Source: Microbacterium forte (GTDB lineage Bacteria > Actinomycetota > Actinomycetes > Actinomycetales > Microbacteriaceae). Taken from it: DNA of 64,000 bases. The position numbers and the translations under genes were made by a program. Below the pieces are notes generated by a model, which ran no database searches, had not been told where the DNA came from, and was given only the letters and a program-made list of their open reading frames with translations. The stretch spans positions 2,232,001 through 2,296,000 of the forward strand of contig NZ_CP116871.1 of the NCBI RefSeq assembly GCF_031885415.1. The letters run 5' to 3'. Of the stretch, positions 35,590-47,439 are shown piece after piece (positions within the stretch are counted from its first letter, which is position 1; each line of letters starts with the position of its first letter).

Positions 35590-35863
35590 TCACGGAATCA
35601 CAACCACCTTGCCTGCGATCTGCCCTTCAACGGCCTCCGCGTGCGGGGCCGGAAGCTCAGTGAGCGAAGTGCGTCGAGTGACCTCCAGAGCGAACGCTCC
35701 GCTGTCGACGTGCGGCACGAGCTCGGCAAGCTTCTCCGCATCACGCCGAACGAACACCACCACAGACCGCACGCCACGCTCGGCGTCATCCGGCGCCGGC
35801 ATCCAGGCCGTGGAGCTCACGACGACTCCCCCGTCGCGCACGAGTTGTACCAGGAAGGCCTTC
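35590..35863 (-). pseudogene. C-terminal fragment of a zinc-type/quinone oxidoreductase
   Basis: The minus-strand frame from about 35863 to the TGA at 35590 reads VRDGGVVVSSTAWMPAPD...VVVFVRRDAEKLAELVPHVD...AVEGQIAGKVVVIP. This is the C-terminal part of an MDR-superfamily NAD(P)H:quinone oxidoreductase (H-A-E-A-V-E-G ... G-K-V-V-V). No N-terminal cofactor domain follows upstream; at about 35864 the sequence changes to a MarR fragment on the other strand. It is a truncated remnant. Confidence 0.7.
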
Positions 35864-38380: not shown

Positions 38381-39355
38381 ATGAGAGTTGTCTCACTGTT
38401 TTCAGGCGCCGGCGGCTTGGACCTAGGCCTGATCACCGCAGGCCACGAAGTCATCTGGGCGAACGACTACGACGCAGACGCGGTCGAGACTTACAAGCTG
38501 AACATCGGTGACCACATCGTGCACGGCGCGATCGAAACGATCACGTCAGATGAGATCCCCGAAGCGGATGCCATCGTGGGCGGCTTCCCTTGCCAAGGAT
38601 TTTCGCAAGCCAATCGTCATCGCGCTCTCACGGACCCTCGCAACCTCCTCTACCGTGAGTTCGTGCGAGTTCTCGAAGACAAGCAACCCAGCTTCTTCGT
38701 CGCTGAGAATGTGAGAGGCCTCGCCAGCTTGGCCGGGGGGCAGGCGATGCAGAGCATCTCCCGAGGGTTCGAGGCTGCAGGATATCGTGTCCGCTCCAAG
38801 ATCCTGAACGCAGCGGACTACGGTGTGCCCCAAAATCGCCAACGTCTGATCTTTATGGGAACCAGGGAGGACATTTCTCCTGAAGCGGATTTGGTCCACC
38901 CCGTCGCCACGCATGCATCGAAGCCGCAAGGCACAGAGCTCGAGCACGTAACGGTGCGGCACGCACTGCATGACATCCCGGATCCCGAGATGTTCCCGGA
39001 CGCCGTTCCAAATCAGGAGTTCTCGAGGTACAAGTTCGTCGAACGGAATTTCACCGGTCACCGATCGACCGATTGGGATAAACCGTCTCCTACAATTCTC
39101 GCGCGAGGAAACGGTGGAGGTGGTGTTAACGCAACACCTCATCCTGACGGGGGACGGCGCATGAGCGTCCGTGAAAGTGCAACTATCCAATGCTTCCCCG
39201 ACGACTTTCGCTTCATAGGCCGGCTAGGATCGGCCTATCGCCAGGTGGGAAACGCGGTGCCTGTGAAGCTGGGTCGCGCTATAGGCCTTTCTCTCATGTC
39301 TTCAGAAGAAAATTTACGAATTCCCCCCGCTAGCATACGATCGGTAATGGCGTGA
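38381..39355 (+). CDS. DNA (cytosine-5) methyltransferase 1
   Basis: 324 aa with the full set of C5 motifs in order: I (LFSGAGGLDLG), IV with the catalytic C71 (GGFPCQGFSQAN), VI (AENVRGL), VIII (QNRQRLIFMG), IX region (SVRESATIQCFP) and X (YRQVGNAVPVKLG). The target recognition domain between VIII and IX is short. It modifies one cytosine in the recognition site to protect host DNA from the HNH enzyme two genes downstream. The gene overlaps the second methyltransferase by 4 bp. Confidence 0.96.
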   Translation: MRVVSLFSGAGGLDLGLITAGHEVIWANDYDADAVETYKLNIGDHIVHGAIETITSDEIPEADAIVGGFPCQGFSQANRHRALTDPRNLLYREFVRVLEDKQPSFFVAENVRGLASLAGGQAMQSISRGFEAAGYRVRSKILNAADYGVPQNRQRLIFMGTREDISPEADLVHPVATHASKPQGTELEHVTVRHALHDIPDPEMFPDAVPNQEFSRYKFVERNFTGHRSTDWDKPSPTILARGNGGGGVNATPHPDGGRRMSVRESATIQCFPDDFRFIGRLGSAYRQVGNAVPVKLGRAIGLSLMSSEENLRIPPASIRSVMA

Positions 39356-40341
39356 ATATGAGTTTTAGAGTGGTGTCCCTCTTCGCGGGCGCGGGCGGTC
39401 TTGACCTTGGCTTCAAGCAGACTGGAGGATTTAGGACAGTTTGGGCTAACGACAACGACCCCGACGCAGTCTCGACGTTCTCGAGCAATTTTGACGTGTC
39501 GGCGAAATTGGGCGACATTCGCAGTATTAGTTCGAGCGAGATCCCCGATTGCGACGTCGTGATAGGTGGATTCCCTTGTCAGGGTTTTTCCGTGGCGAAC
39601 ACAGGGCGACGCGTCGACGACGCGCGCAATGCATTGTACCTGGAAATGCTCCGAGTAGTTCGCGATAAGCGACCACTCGCGTTCGTGGCTGAGAATGTGA
39701 AGGGCCTCAAGCAAATGGCGAAGGGCGAAGTACTGCGGCGAATTCTTGATGACTTTCGCGAATTGGGATATGACGTACAATATCAACTTGTCAATGCGGC
39801 TGATTACGGCGTGCCCCAAAGGCGAGAACGCGTAATCATCGTGGGCACTCGCGCGGACGAGGGAATCACCTTCAACTTTCCCGATGCCACTCATAGCCCA
39901 CAAGGAGGAAACGGCAAATCGCGATGGATAACATCCGGAGAGGCCCTATCGGAAATCCCCGATCCAGATTCCGACAACGATCTCCTAAACCATACCTACT
40001 CGCGCTACAAGCTCCGCTTCAATGGGTACATCGGAAATCGGTCTGTCGATCCAGACCTTCCTGCCCCCACTGTTACGGGTCGCGGTGATAACCGGGGCGG
40101 CGTTGTTGTACTTCACCACCCTTCCAATACTCGCAGAATGTCCGTCCGGGAACTCGCGACCATCCAGTCTTTCCCACTAGATTTCTACTTCAGCTGCAAT
40201 CAGTCTGCCGCGTATCGCCTCATCGGTAATGCGGTGCCTCCCGCTCTCGGGAACGCAGTAGGAGGCGCGCTACTTCGTGCCCTGTCTGATGCTCTCGTTG
40301 TTCCGGATTCGGACGTGAAGACTTATGCCTTCGCCGGTTGA
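39352..40341 (+). CDS. DNA (cytosine-5) methyltransferase 2
   Basis: 329 aa counted from the GTG at 39352 (an ATG at 39358 is equally possible). C5 motifs: I (LFAGAGGLDLG), IV with catalytic C76 (GGFPCQGFSVAN), VI (AENVKGL), VIII (QRRERVIIVG), IX (SVRELATIQSFP) and X (YRLIGNAVPPALG). It is clearly paralogous to the first enzyme, but its target recognition segment differs, and its base composition is more AT-rich. Two C5 enzymes in one system usually mean an asymmetric site with each strand methylated separately. Confidence 0.96.
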   Translation: MNMSFRVVSLFAGAGGLDLGFKQTGGFRTVWANDNDPDAVSTFSSNFDVSAKLGDIRSISSSEIPDCDVVIGGFPCQGFSVANTGRRVDDARNALYLEMLRVVRDKRPLAFVAENVKGLKQMAKGEVLRRILDDFRELGYDVQYQLVNAADYGVPQRRERVIIVGTRADEGITFNFPDATHSPQGGNGKSRWITSGEALSEIPDPDSDNDLLNHTYSRYKLRFNGYIGNRSVDPDLPAPTVTGRGDNRGGVVVLHHPSNTRRMSVRELATIQSFPLDFYFSCNQSAAYRLIGNAVPPALGNAVGGALLRALSDALVVPDSDVKTYAFAG

Positions 40342-41554
40342 GGCCCCCGCTCTTCCGTTCGAAGAGTTCAAATGGCGTTGGGCGTCGAAGATGCCCAACG
40401 AAGGTCTTAACCGTCCTGATGTATTTCTGGGCGTATTGCGTGCGCTACGCCAGAACGAGGGCCGTGCACGATCCTCGCCTGAGCTCCACCAAAGCTTGAC
40501 GGAACTACAGACCAGCCTCGGCGCGCAATACGGATTGGACCTGGCTCGGACTGGCGACCGCAACCTGCTCCGAAACGCCGGCCAGTATTGGACGACGCTT
40601 GGCGTCCTCAAGCGGACGCCCCTAATCGACCTAACGGATCTGGGGCGAGAATACGCCGACGGCCTGATCAGTCCTCGGCAGTTCGCCGTTCACACGATCG
40701 TCAGTCTTTACCTGCCAAGCTCTTCCTATAACGAGCCCGAGCATCAAGCTTGGTCGGGGGCTGGGATCAGGTTTCGGCCGCTCCTTCTCATACTCGAGAT
40801 AATCCACGGCCTCGGTGCTTTCGGTGCGAGCACAGGCTACATTACGGATTTCGAGCTACGCCGAATCGTTCAGCCGCTGTCGGCCACCAGACCCGAGGCG
40901 TCCTACATCGCTGACGCGATCCGCCAGTACCGTGAAGGCCAACTCGACATAAGCTCCTGGCCGCGTACGACCACGCAGTCGAACGATTCAAGATCATCAC
41001 GGGAGTTTCTGCGTTTTCTCACGGAGTACGATTTCCTCGTACACGATGGGTCCCTGGGCGAGGGGCAACGCTACCGCCTCGGCGACATCGATGGCGCGGA
41101 TATCGGGTTGCTCGTTTCAATCGGATCAAATACTTCAACCACGGATGAAACGTCAACCGAATCGGTCGCATACGTTGCTACAACTCTTGAGCGGCGCCGA
41201 GCCACCAGATCCGTGCTCGAACGTCCGGGGCAACGACAGTTTCGCTTCGAAGTTTTCGACCGGGCGAACAAGACTTGTCTTATTACTGGCAGCACGGTGG
41301 TGACAGTGCTAGAAGCGGCGCACATCAGGCCCTACTCGATCTCGGGCCTCGATGACCCTTCTAATGGGCTCTGTCTCAGGGCAGACATTCATAGTCTGTT
41401 CGACAGTAACAAAGTCCGCATCGACCCTACAGGCGAGATCCACTACGCCACGGAACTGCGACGCGACGTTCACTACGCACAACTGCCCTCACGAGTCGAA
41501 CTTCCTGCTTATGTATCTCCCGCGCACGTCAAGTGGCGATGGGACTACTACTGA
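40325..41554 (+). CDS. HNH-type restriction endonuclease
   Basis: 409 aa. The C-terminal third holds an HNH domain: CLITGSTVV (about 318), AAHIRPYS (His about 333), DDPSNGLCL and HSLFDSNKV. The N-terminal two thirds (TDLGREYADGLISPRQFAVH, LLILEIIHGLGAFGAS) look like a winged-helix target-recognition region found in several HNH restriction enzymes. The ATG at 40325 lies 17 bp inside the second methyltransferase gene, so translation is coupled and restriction follows modification. The cut site is unknown. Confidence 0.88.
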   Translation: MPSPVEAPALPFEEFKWRWASKMPNEGLNRPDVFLGVLRALRQNEGRARSSPELHQSLTELQTSLGAQYGLDLARTGDRNLLRNAGQYWTTLGVLKRTPLIDLTDLGREYADGLISPRQFAVHTIVSLYLPSSSYNEPEHQAWSGAGIRFRPLLLILEIIHGLGAFGASTGYITDFELRRIVQPLSATRPEASYIADAIRQYREGQLDISSWPRTTTQSNDSRSSREFLRFLTEYDFLVHDGSLGEGQRYRLGDIDGADIGLLVSIGSNTSTTDETSTESVAYVATTLERRRATRSVLERPGQRQFRFEVFDRANKTCLITGSTVVTVLEAAHIRPYSISGLDDPSNGLCLRADIHSLFDSNKVRIDPTGEIHYATELRRDVHYAQLPSRVELPAYVSPAHVKWRWDYY

Positions 41555-43483: not shown

Positions 43484-43864
43484 ATGAAGAAGCTCCCCAC
43501 GCTCGCGTCGCTGGCCGTCGGCATCCTGGTGCTCTCCGGATGCTCGCAGGCGTCGACCATCGCCGCCTGCGGTCAGATCGCCGCTCAGGCCGCGCAGGTG
43601 ACCGGTGTGATCGGCAGCGTCAGCTCGCCGACTCCCGAGGCCGCGCAGGCAGCGCTCGACGAGGTCAAGAACGTCGCCGAGAACATCCGCGGTGTCGACG
43701 GACCCAAGGAGTTCGTCACGCTCCGCGACTCGTGGACGACGAGCATCGACGCATTCGCTGCCGAGGGCGAGAAGGCCATCGCGGGTGATATCACAGGCCT
43801 GGACGCGGCGACGACAGAGATGCGCGCGGCGACCGACGCGATGCTCGCGTACTGCACGACCTAA
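43484..43864 (+). CDS. Small secreted lipoprotein
   Basis: 126 aa. The signal peptide ends in LVLSGC, a clear lipobox, giving a lipid-anchored mature protein of about 107 residues. The mature chain is helical, with Ala-rich amphipathic stretches (AQAALDEVKNVAENIRG) and two further Cys (C29 and the near-terminal C124) that could pair. Function unknown. It is co-directional with the preceding gene, 32 bp away. Confidence 0.8.
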   Translation: MKKLPTLASLAVGILVLSGCSQASTIAACGQIAAQAAQVTGVIGSVSSPTPEAAQAALDEVKNVAENIRGVDGPKEFVTLRDSWTTSIDAFAAEGEKAIAGDITGLDAATTEMRAATDAMLAYCTT

Positions 43865-43874
43865 CCGCAGCCCG

Positions 43875-44123
43875 TCACTCGTCCCATCGAACGCTCATCG
43901 CAGTCTCGAAGCTGCCATCGATCACCCGTCCCCCTTCGAACCCGGATTCCTCGTCCACCGGGTTCTCCGACGCACCCTCGGCGTGGCAAGTCCGCCGCAT
44001 CGGCCGACTCGCTCGTCTGCCAGTAGTCGACGACGCGAATCGCGCCGTGGTCGCGACGCACCGCCGCCATCCGCGCCCGAAGTCGAGATAGGCGCCCTTG
44101 CTTTCCGTTGGCGCCGGGACCAT
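43875..44123 (-). pseudogene. Possible degraded gene with frameshifts
   Basis: In the 410 bp between the lipoprotein and the reverse transcriptase, protein-like segments appear on the minus strand in two frames: KGAYLDFGRGW (frame ending 43875), then AAVRRDHGAIRVVDYWQTSE (frame ending 43861), then SGFEGGRVIDGSFETAMSV (first frame again). Two compensating shifts would give one continuous protein of about 80 aa. I do not recognise it. Sequencing error is an alternative. Confidence 0.35.
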
Positions 44124-44275
44124 CGTGGGATGTCGGCGGCGACCATGCTCGGCTCCCGTGAGCGGCGTCGAGTACTCGCGGTCGCGGTATCCGCCAGCGC
44201 CCTCGGCCGATCAGGGCGGTCTAGAGCGCGATGCCGACCCGGTAGCGCGAGCTACTCGTTGCGGAAGGCATGACG

Positions 44276-45826
44276 CTACTTAGCGAGGTCCTCCTCGCCG
44301 TAAAGATAGACGGGGGCTCGGCCGGAGACGGCTCGAAGGCCATGAGTGCTCACGGCTAACCTGATCACTGAGGCGATCTTTCTCACGCTTGGAATGCGTA
44401 GGTCGATGGAGTCACCAGTCCGAGACGAAACGGTTTGGAAGCCGATCAGCTGATGCCTGCCGACGCCATGGGGGGCGGGCGTGCGTAGTCTCGCAGCCCG
44501 AAGTAGCCGCGCTCTCTTTCGCATAGCCAGCCAGATCTGAGATGCGATCCACTCATCGAGATGACGGAGCCCCTCCGCGTCGTCCACCAGCGGAAAGAAG
44601 GACATGACGCCTTCAAAGGACATCGGCGGGATGGCGCCTCTTTGAAACTTGCGAACCTCCTTCTCGGTGAGGGGGCCGTAAAGGTATCGGCGGAGTTGCC
44701 AGAGCAAAGTCACGTAGTCGCGATCTACCGAACTCAGGCGGGATGGCTCCTGTGTTCCCGCGAGCGGCTCGAGCAAGAGGTTATTGAAGATCAGCGCGCC
44801 GACACGCCGCTTGATCCGGTCGACCGATGCTGGCTTCATCTGCACTGAGCGAAGGCCAATGCGGTGCCCGAGGTAGTCGACCTCCTTCGTCGCAGCCATT
44901 TCGACGTGCACGGTCTCGGACTTGGTCAGTAGACGGATACCCGGGCTCTTCTTGACGTTGATCGGAGAACCTATACGCGCCGACGCCTCATGCAATATAG
45001 ACGCGGCCGCACCAACCTTCCCGTAGTCCGTACTCCAGATGAGTGTGTCGTCGGCGTATCGAACGAACCCCACGCCAAGACGTTCGAGCCCACGATCCAG
45101 ATCGGCCGCCGCGATGTTCGCCAGGAACAGACTTAGCGATGTGCCCTGGGGGATGCCTTGGGAGCGAGCTCTTCCCGCAATCATCCCGCTGCTCGTGGCA
45201 ACGTATGGCTCTGGAGTCTTTAAGAACTGCTCGATGACGTGATGCTCGAGCGGAGTGCGCGTTAGCCCGAGCTTGTCGAGCATTTCCAGGAGATAGTCGT
45301 GGTCGACGGTGTCGAAGAACCTGCTGAAATCGTACTCAGCGACAAATAGACGGTGCTCTCGAGCAAGCTCAGTGGTGATGTAGGAGATGGCGTCGTGCGG
45401 CCCGACGTCTGGACGGTATGCATACGCACGCGCGCTCAGCCGAGCGAGGTTCTTTCTCGTCAGCGATCGGAGCATCCGATTCGAAATAACCTCGTCCGCG
45501 ATCTGGAAAGTGCTGATGAGCCTCTCGCCCCCGTCCGCCTTGGGAACATAGAACCCAGCTGGGGGACGCGGCTCATAGCTTCGGTCACGCAGTCTCTCCG
45601 TGATTGCGTGCCCAATCCGATGACGGCGCGAGCGGACGATGTATGGGTTGAATCCAGGATCGATGTCCCAGGTTTCGGGTCGGTGCAACGGAAGCCGTTC
45701 GGGGCGTCCAGTGCTTCGCCGACTCCGCCGGCGGTTCTCGTCATACACGGACTTTGCATAGGTCTCGTGCTCGACGATCAATCGAGTTGACGTCTCCAAG
45801 AGCCGCTCATCCAGCTGCCACCACAT
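44276..45826 (-). CDS. Stand-alone reverse transcriptase (candidate defence RT)
   Basis: 516 aa from the ATG at 45826, which has GAAGGAG 7 nt upstream; a longer frame to 45880 lacks a ribosome site. RT motifs are all intact: fingers FYVPKADGGERLISTFQIAD (about 92-111), motif A VAEYDFSRFFDTVDH (D166), motif B GIPQGTSLSLFLANI (224-238), motif C VRYADD (YADD 257-260), motif D INVKKSPGIR, and motif E VDYLGHRI. About 175 further residues form a C-terminal domain I cannot name. It has no HNH or maturase endonuclease, and lacks the VTG and NAxxH marks of retrons. It resembles the unknown-group/DRT enzymes. Confidence 0.9.
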   Translation of the reverse strand: MWWQLDERLLETSTRLIVEHETYAKSVYDENRRRSRRSTGRPERLPLHRPETWDIDPGFNPYIVRSRRHRIGHAITERLRDRSYEPRPPAGFYVPKADGGERLISTFQIADEVISNRMLRSLTRKNLARLSARAYAYRPDVGPHDAISYITTELAREHRLFVAEYDFSRFFDTVDHDYLLEMLDKLGLTRTPLEHHVIEQFLKTPEPYVATSSGMIAGRARSQGIPQGTSLSLFLANIAAADLDRGLERLGVGFVRYADDTLIWSTDYGKVGAAASILHEASARIGSPINVKKSPGIRLLTKSETVHVEMAATKEVDYLGHRIGLRSVQMKPASVDRIKRRVGALIFNNLLLEPLAGTQEPSRLSSVDRDYVTLLWQLRRYLYGPLTEKEVRKFQRGAIPPMSFEGVMSFFPLVDDAEGLRHLDEWIASQIWLAMRKRARLLRAARLRTPAPHGVGRHQLIGFQTVSSRTGDSIDLRIPSVRKIASVIRLAVSTHGLRAVSGRAPVYLYGEEDLAK

Positions 45827-45844
45827 GCGCTCTCCTTCGGACGA

Positions 45845-46042
45845 GGCTGGGAGCGGCGGCGCCGCCCCCAGCCGCAGCATCGAGTCCAGGCAAAATGTGC
45901 TTCACGCAGGTTGTCGACTCGCGAAGACAACCCCAGTGGTGGCGGGGCGGTGATCAACCGGGATCCGCTACCAAAATGGACTGGCGCCTAGTTCCGCTTG
46001 GAACCTATGCGAGATAGTAGCGGAAGGCGGCGGGCCTTTCGC
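45845..46042 (-). other. Hairpin-rich upstream region of the RT gene (possible ncRNA)
   Basis: The 330-bp gap between the divergent RT and HEPN-like genes holds four stems: GGCTGGG...CCCAGCC with GGCGGCGCCGCC inside (45845-45873), GGTTGTC-N10-GACAACC (45909-45932), GTTCC-GCTT-GGAAC (45991-46004) and GCGGAAGGC...GCCTTTCGC (46020-46042, one G-T pair). I see no open reading frame with a ribosome site. The density of stems is compatible with a structured RNA template or cofactor made in the RT direction, but this is inference. Confidence 0.45.
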
Positions 46043-46155
46043 AGTCCCACGGGGTCGCCCCACTCAGTACCGACCGGGTCACTCAATCGATCAGTTCGTG
46101 CGTAGGCGACGGGTGCGATGATTCGAGACAGAGGGCGCAGATCAGAGGTGGAGAC

Positions 46156-46821
46156 TTGGACGACGCAGCAACGGGACCTTCATTGAGCGGGGAGAGCTCG
46201 AGCTTCCTCGGCCCGCATGAGCGAGCCGTGGTGATCCAGACTCCGTCCTCGGTCTCTCTGCGCGACCTCGCCAGTTACGAGCGGGATTTCGAGCTCGCGG
46301 CGGGATACCTACGTCAGTACCTATCCGGTGACATCGAGGTTGACCGCACGTTCGCATCTCCCCTAGACGCGCTCTGGACCGCGGCAGTAGTCATCTATGC
46401 GCGCGCGTTCTCAAAGGGAGTGAGAGTTACGGACGGGCCGTCCGTCGACCAGCTGTCATCTGCAGATCGAGAGTTGCATGATTACGTCATAGATCTGCGA
46501 AACAAGTATCTTGCTCACTCCGTCAACGGATTTGAGCACACCGATGTCGTAGCGTTTCTAGTCGATTCGCCGCACCACCCCCGCGCGCTAGGAGGGATCG
46601 GAACGATCCACACAGCGCTGAGCAGGATGGAGCGGAGCTCCTGCGAGCGTTTCCTTTCGCTCTGCGAATCACATCTGGATGGGCTTCAAAAGCGATCAAG
46701 TGCCCTACATCGTCAGATCGCAGAGGAACTCATCGCAACCGGCGCGGCGAACGTCTACGCGCTGCCGGACCACACATCCCCGATTATCGATCAACGGGCA
46801 TCTCGATCTCGACGCAAGTGA
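46156..46821 (+). CDS. HEPN-like hypothetical protein divergent from the RT
   Basis: 221 aa. The central helix pair includes VIDLRNKYLAHSVNGFE, with R115-N-K-Y-L-A-H121, fitting the HEPN R-x4-6-H motif and resembling AbiV/AbiU2-like or DUF4145-like proteins (R-N-K-x-x-A-H). The rest is helical (ASYERDFELAAGYLRQYL, MERSSCERFLSLCES). It starts at TTG 46156 after GAGGTGGAG. It shares the hairpin-rich region with the RT on the other strand. Whether it works with the RT is not known. Confidence 0.6.
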   Translation: MDDAATGPSLSGESSSFLGPHERAVVIQTPSSVSLRDLASYERDFELAAGYLRQYLSGDIEVDRTFASPLDALWTAAVVIYARAFSKGVRVTDGPSVDQLSSADRELHDYVIDLRNKYLAHSVNGFEHTDVVAFLVDSPHHPRALGGIGTIHTALSRMERSSCERFLSLCESHLDGLQKRSSALHRQIAEELIATGAANVYALPDHTSPIIDQRASRSRRK

Positions 46822-46869
46822 CCACAATTCGTCACACGAGCCGCCGTCCACGTTGGATGGTGCCGTCAC

Positions 46870-47439
46870 CTACCGGGCGATGCCTCGCAGCAGCCGCGTC
46901 ACCGTCTCCTCGACCCGCTCTGCACTCAACGGCTGACCGATCAACGCCGCGTACGACGCCATGGCGATGAGCTGGTCGGCGATCGCGTCGGCATCCACGT
47001 CTGCCCGCACCTGACCGTCGACCAGTCCACGCGCGATCCGTTCGGCGACCCACGAGCGGATCGGAGCCGCGAGACGCTCGTTGAGCGCCAGGCCGAGTTC
47101 GTGGTCGGTGGCGGTCACCGCGATCAGCGCCCGGGCGAGTGCGACACCTTCGGGCCTTGCGAGCCCGTCTGATATGGCCGAGAACCACGCATGCAGGTCG
47201 GCCCGGATGTCGTCGCTCATCGCGACGGCGGGGTCGGCCCCTGGCAGGTCTCCTTCGAGCAGCGCCTCTCCGAGGATCGCCGCCTTCGACGGCCACCAGC
47301 GGTAGATCGTCTGCTTGGCGACTCCCGCTGTCTCAGCGAGCCCCTCGATCGTCACCGCTTCGTAGGCACCGGCCACCACGGCAGCGCGCATCGCCTCGAG
47401 CACGGACTGGCGCGCGGCTTCACTTCGGGGACGGGGCAC
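46870..47439 (-). CDS. TetR-family regulator
   Basis: 189 aa. The N-terminal HTH reads TIEGLAETAGVAKQTIYRWWPSK (residues about 29-51), with the usual YRWWPSK of this subfamily; the remainder is a ligand-binding helical domain. The GTG at 47439 is the likely start. It is followed by nothing on the same strand, and the RibD-like gene upstream lies 27 bp before its start on the same strand, so the two may be co-transcribed. The ligand is unknown. Confidence 0.9.
   Translation of the reverse strand: MPRPRSEAARQSVLEAMRAAVVAGAYEAVTIEGLAETAGVAKQTIYRWWPSKAAILGEALLEGDLPGADPAVAMSDDIRADLHAWFSAISDGLARPEGVALARALIAVTATDHELGLALNERLAAPIRSWVAERIARGLVDGQVRADVDADAIADQLIAMASYAALIGQPLSAERVEETVTRLLRGIAR

Follow-up and report, generated by a model that had tools for sequence, protein, structure and literature searches.

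Organization of the locus

The window, a 64,000-nucleotide stretch of the Microbacterium forte genome, contains a gene for a reverse transcriptase (RT), a structured noncoding RNA (ncRNA) directly upstream of it on the same strand, and a divergently oriented gene for a HEPN-like protein (Table 1). All three lie within a 3,012-bp stretch, and in G1159, a genome of the same genus, the matches to the two flanking genes are only 24 bp apart. Among 99 genomes of the genus the left flanking gene was found in G1159 and in the window's own genome alone, so that the site is seen in a single relative. The third-position GC of the RT gene (0.70) and of the HEPN-like gene (0.65) is low against that of the flanking TetR (0.82) and lipoprotein (0.88) genes. 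The simplest reading is that one piece, carrying RT, ncRNA and HEPN-like gene together, was gained; the relative may instead have lost it, or there may have been two gains rather than one.

Table 1. Features of the locus, in coordinates of the window
Feature	Position	Strand	Basis
Stretch of 3.0 kb (3,012 bp) with RT, ncRNA and HEPN-like gene	43859..46870	.	24 bp instead in same-genus G1159
DRT9 (UG28) RT, 516 aa	44276..45826	-	PADLOC Drt9, PDB 9ioa and tree
Y507-L-Y509, expected priming tyrosines	44300..44308	-	Y-x-Y near the C-terminus in 15 of 16 DRT9 proteins
YADD active-site codons, residues 257-260	45047..45058	-	invariant in 10 aligned DRT9 proteins
DRT9 ncRNA as aligned, ends approximate	45827..46009	-	covariation; held-out L047 found
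Terminal hairpin GGCTGGG/CCCAGCC before the RT, helix 6	45845..45873	-	11 pairs, 8 changed on both sides
U4 tract, expected poly-dA template	45892..45895	-	three U invariant in 9/9; unpaired in consensus fold
Internal stem-loop GGTTGTC/GACAACC, helix 5	45909..45932	-	6 pairs, 5 changed on both sides
5' stem-loop, helix 1	45990..46005	-	6 pairs, 3 changed on both sides, 98.1% of cells paired
Possible -10 box TACTAT of a putative ncRNA promoter	46014..46019	-	TANNNT aligned in 9/9 upstream regions
Divergent HEPN-like gene, probable passenger	46156..46821	+	RNKYLAH motif; not found at the other actinobacterial DRT9 loci tested

No convincing direct or inverted repeat pair was found at the ends of this cassette. 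Its left part of about 0.4 kb (43865-44275) has a GC content of 0.66-0.68 and no convincing gene, and three short ORFs there have no Pfam match. No gene of the cassette was recognised as SLATT, a gene that is only occasional in DRT9 (PMC12483538). Elsewhere in the window, at 39352-41554 on the forward strand, a cytosine-methyltransferase gene (PADLOC MTase_II, 331 bits) is followed by an HNH endonuclease-like gene (PADLOC HNH, 37 bits). The two are likely a restriction-modification pair, situated about 2.7 kb from the 3.0-kb stretch. Nothing in the stretch of G1159 that was compared matches the window between positions 35855 and 41742.

The reverse transcriptase

The ATG at 45826 is taken as the start of the RT because close relatives begin at the same M/V-W. 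A mechanical list of ORFs has a longer form of 534 aa starting at 45880, a start that would fall inside the conserved ncRNA. In a profile search the PADLOC Drt9 model matches residues 1-503 of the protein with 583 bits, and the next PADLOC models are a generic RT (106 bits) and UG17 (92 bits). The same Drt9 model gives 484 to 735 bits on 10 other DRT9 proteins from the compared loci. Pfam returns RVT_1 alone, and two NCBIfam models, group II maturase (128 bits over residues 72-329, cut-off 300) and Drt2 (59 bits, cut-off 390), remain below their thresholds. The closest solved structure is that of a DRT9 enzyme, PDB 9ioa (297 bits), with which 9iob, 9nlv, 9nlx, 9vku and 9vma are identical in sequence; 9NLV and 9NLX are SenDRT9 structures (PMC12483538). 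A structure predicted for the RT from a five-sequence alignment had a mean pLDDT of 52.6, too poor for a fold search.

In a maximum-likelihood tree all 16 DRT9 rows are split by a 100/98 branch from the remaining four, three LtrA proteins (group II intron) and one DGR RT. The tree consists of these rows, so that separation from other UG groups and from retrons rests on the profile scores. The window RT groups with the DRT9 of E. coli, apart from the group II intron and DGR RTs, and falls together with L001, L002, L006 and L016. It is nearer to L006, from another family, than to L016, from its own, as expected for horizontal spread.

By profile, closest structure and tree, the RT is assigned to DRT9, a system already known and described in 2025 (PMC12483538, PMC12489045). 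The initial annotation had seen an unknown-group or DRT-type RT, neither a retron nor a group II intron protein. This part of the reading was right. The annotation had further proposed an unassigned candidate defence system, and of this a defence-type RT with a conserved structured RNA stands, the system itself being the known DRT9.

The residues expected of an active enzyme are kept. D166, YADD 257-260 and Q227-G228 of the PQG motif, earlier listed as intact, show no variation in 10 aligned DRT9 proteins. K96, R102 and R138 are likewise invariant (10/10) and align with the published lock residues K98, R104 and R140, and Y23 aligns with Y25 of the N-terminal helix (PMC12489045). The C-terminal domain, previously left without a name, is present and can be named: it is the DRT9 thumb followed by the tail with both tyrosines. 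The one exception to the Y-x-Y tail among the 16 DRT9 proteins is Thioclava L012, which has a single tyrosine at that place. In SenDRT9 the C-terminal Y-x-Y primes synthesis (PMC12483538, PMC12489045); Y507 and Y509 are the counterparts of these tyrosines, and a priming role would be expected for them by analogy.

The upstream RNA and its uridine tract

The leader of the RT gene is identified as the DRT9 ncRNA by comparative evidence and not by single-sequence folding, which is unremarkable (-78.8 kcal/mol, z -1.77; of 200 shuffles, 7 are equally or more stable). The consensus fold of nine aligned upstream regions begins with a 5' stem-loop and ends in a terminal hairpin just before the RT; between these lie an internal stem-loop and a multi-branched part, which a long-range helix closes. 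Aligning homologues for covariation had been suggested as a check in the initial annotation, and in the nine sequences 27 of the 39 pairs are changed on both sides, a count reached by none of 500 shuffles. Pairing extends to 91.9% of 344 cells, again reached by 0/500 shuffles, and falls to 46-48% when the partner is shifted by one column. Both figures are favoured by the fold having been derived from the same alignment. The two stems quoted at the outset, GGCTGGG (45867-45873) with CCCAGCC (45845-45851) and GGTTGTC (45926-45932) with GACAACC (45909-45915), are both present and both belong to covarying helices. Ahead of the RNA, a conserved TANNNT box is a possible -10 element, and its conservation suggests a promoter there.

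An independent check comes from the ncRNA model, which finds L047, a locus left out of the model, with an E-value of 5.9e-9 directly upstream of the L047 RT. In the whole genome of the window the model finds this locus alone, at E 0.001. It has no match in L007, L011, L012, L017, L018, L019 or L020, and the RNAs of E. coli, Hymenobacter, Thioclava and two viral contigs escape this actinobacterial model. What speaks for homology of the RNA across phyla is therefore its position, U tract and terminal hairpin rather than a score. Rfam, searched over 43800-47400 at E up to 1, gave no match.

The unpaired U tract lies just 5' of the closing strand in the consensus fold. In SenDRT9 a U4 at positions 123-126 is established as the template of poly-dA (PMC12483538). 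At the corresponding place in 10 actinobacterial RNAs there are four uridines in eight, including L047, and three in two, the mycobacterial L003 and L004, which read AAUUUCC directly upstream of the RT. From the start of the tract to the RT start codon there are 69 nt in the window and 65 nt in E. coli L019, the distant loci holding several U runs, so that the template there is assigned by position alone. The E. coli L019 tract reads ACUUUUAC; the hairpin after it carries a T run, which the terminal hairpin of the window lacks. A second UUUU of the leader (45973-45976, in the helix 3 region) was rejected as the template, since the four closest relatives have UUU there and the others do not keep it.

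The number of uridines needed for templating is left open by Tang et al. (PMC12483538), and the natural three-U and four-U loci make this requirement directly testable. A mild novelty of the present set lies in its high-GC DRT9 RNAs, two of them with only three template uridines. In the studies drawn on here, the DRT9 systems tested are those of Salmonella, Photobacterium and E. coli. Actinobacterial or mycobacterial DRT9 was not found in a search of an open-access library, and the published member lists, given in supplements, may include actinobacteria.

The locus resembles the DRT9 of Salmonella enterica and E. coli in the homology of the RT over its whole length, including the N-terminal extension, YADD, the lock residues and the tyrosine pair, and in an upstream structured ncRNA with a U4 tract and a terminal hairpin. 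It differs from E. coli DRT9 in that its RNA is high in GC and the actinobacterial model misses the E. coli RNA, the likeness being one of layout, in the hairpin already mentioned, in the divergent gene that adjoins it, and in being known from sequence alone. High-GC members whose RNA has diverged show that the U tract, multi-branched fold and terminal hairpin are kept, as is the tyrosine pair.

Very probably, the RT and its upstream ncRNA constitute a DRT9 antiphage system that would act through poly-dA and abortive infection. The mechanism is modelled on SenDRT9 and E. coli DRT9, in which poly-dA is made on infection and leads to abortive infection (PMC12483538, PMC12489045). By this analogy, the ncRNA would be transcribed from just upstream of the RT gene and fold into a scaffold that is bound by the RT and holds RT oligomers together. 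The unpaired U4 tract would sit at the active site as the template. Upon phage infection, the RT would prime on its own C-terminal tyrosines, Y507 and Y509, and copy the uridines repeatedly into long poly-dA, which would bring about abortive infection.

The divergent gene, alternative readings and distribution

The HEPN hallmark is R-[NDH]-x4-6-H in an all-helical domain. The divergent gene, for which an R-N-x-x-x-A-H at residues 115-121 had been reported, starts with TTG and has RNKYLAH at that place. The motif is kept as R-[ND]-x4-H in homologues from Arthrobacter and Sphingobium, and a Rhodococcus piece ends before it. Searches of Pfam, PADLOC and NCBIfam at E up to 1 gave no match to the protein, so that the label 'HEPN-like' rests on the motif, by which the HEPN assignment is plausible. 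Its predicted structure is all-helical, with a mean pLDDT of 46.6, too poor for a fold search. Residues 60-191 weakly match phrog_8440 (E 5.2e-5), a family without an assigned function, which suggests that the HEPN-like family is also carried by phages.

Relatives of this protein are scarce. At eight other DRT9 loci tblastn gave only chance matches (E 0.48 at L001, 0.66 at L007), and no relative was found in any of nine DRT9 genomes or at L047. In all, these searches covered 10 other actinobacterial DRT9 loci or genomes and in none of them found the gene next to DRT9; L011, L012 and L017-L020, which are not actinobacterial, lie outside this set. Across 396 genomes drawn from the order, tblastn retrieved the protein itself alone, and in a positive control it retrieved its own genome at E 1e-144. 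Only three of 72,556 plasmid records hold relatives, the best in Arthrobacter pZXY21 (38.5% over 85%), and in none of the three is there an annotated RT within about 5 kb.

The initial annotation had counted this gene as part of the system, and the two genes could indeed be read as one module, with the HEPN-like protein co-acting with DRT9 as an RNase, toxin or regulator. They share the stretch missing from the relative's site, a low third-position GC and the intergenic region between their divergent starts. A module is nevertheless very improbable: the neighbour is not kept at the related DRT9 loci tested, its plasmid relatives stand without an annotated RT nearby, and RT and ncRNA suffice for DRT9 in E. 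coli (PMC12489045). The HEPN-like gene was dropped as a DRT9 partner on synteny. An equally improbable elaboration would have an actinobacterial DRT9 branch of its own, with a strongly diverged ncRNA whose minimal template shrinks to three uridines in two mycobacterial loci, and with the HEPN-like protein, gained in the same stretch, as a lineage-specific accessory in this strain, acting on the DRT9 RNA or responding to poly-dA. Because the gene was not found at the other actinobacterial DRT9 loci and genomes tested, it is most likely a mobile orphan, a passenger outside the DRT9 system. For the genome of the window, one defence system is named and the HEPN-like gene is removed from it.

Some other RT systems share the general layout. 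DRT2 (UG2) is also a single RT with an upstream ncRNA (PMC12489045), but its product is an RNA-templated gene for the protein Neo (PMC12483538). DRT10 (UG17) combines an RT, an ncRNA and protein priming, and differs in its SLATT partner, serine primer and tandem-repeat product (PMC12632851). That the window RT is an enzyme of this latter kind, making tandem-repeat DNA from a longer template, is highly improbable. UG17 is the top-scoring other named UG group and DRT10 RNAs are said to resemble those of DRT9 (PMC12632851), but its 92 bits stand against 583 for Drt9, the RT has a Y-x-Y tail in place of the serine primer, the neighbouring HEPN-like protein is without a Pfam match where DRT10 has a SLATT gene, and the template tract is a run of U. 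The maturase match might point to a mobile-element RT, from a group II intron or otherwise, whose leader forms hairpins by chance; this reading can be set aside almost entirely, being refuted at the sequence level by the Drt9 score, the leader covariation and the tree, with the maturase score under its cut-off, RVT_1 the sole Pfam match and no Rfam match in the region.

At E 1e-60 or better, Drt9 was present in 5 of 396 genomes drawn from the order, 1 of 396 from the phylum and 2 of 398 from the family, draws that overlap and each include the window's own genome. A draw around the genome of L003 gave 3 of 201, two of them already known (L001 and L003). The profile matched 3 of 14 control genomes at a loose cut-off and 0 of 14 at E 1e-60. 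With the window RT as query, no relative was found among viral contigs, nor among phages at E 1e-20; an alignment query recovered two DRT9 loci from the viral contigs. At E 1e-4, 21 phage records match, none over 80% of the query. At least 5000 plasmid records match at E 1e-6, and the best 30 of these are a Hymenobacter DRT9 followed by 29 annotated group II intron RTs or unannotated proteins.

On the Thioclava plasmid (L012), where DRT9 scores 484 bits, a SLATT-domain gene (L012:4364-4999) overlaps the end of the RT. By eye, a 998-aa ORF upstream in L002 is restriction-modification-like and an ORF downstream in L047 is cytosine-methyltransferase-like. The E. coli DRT9 of two genomes (L019, L020) lies beside an integrase next to the tmRNA gene, and the L018 stretch has relatives in 3 of 5426 E. 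coli genomes.
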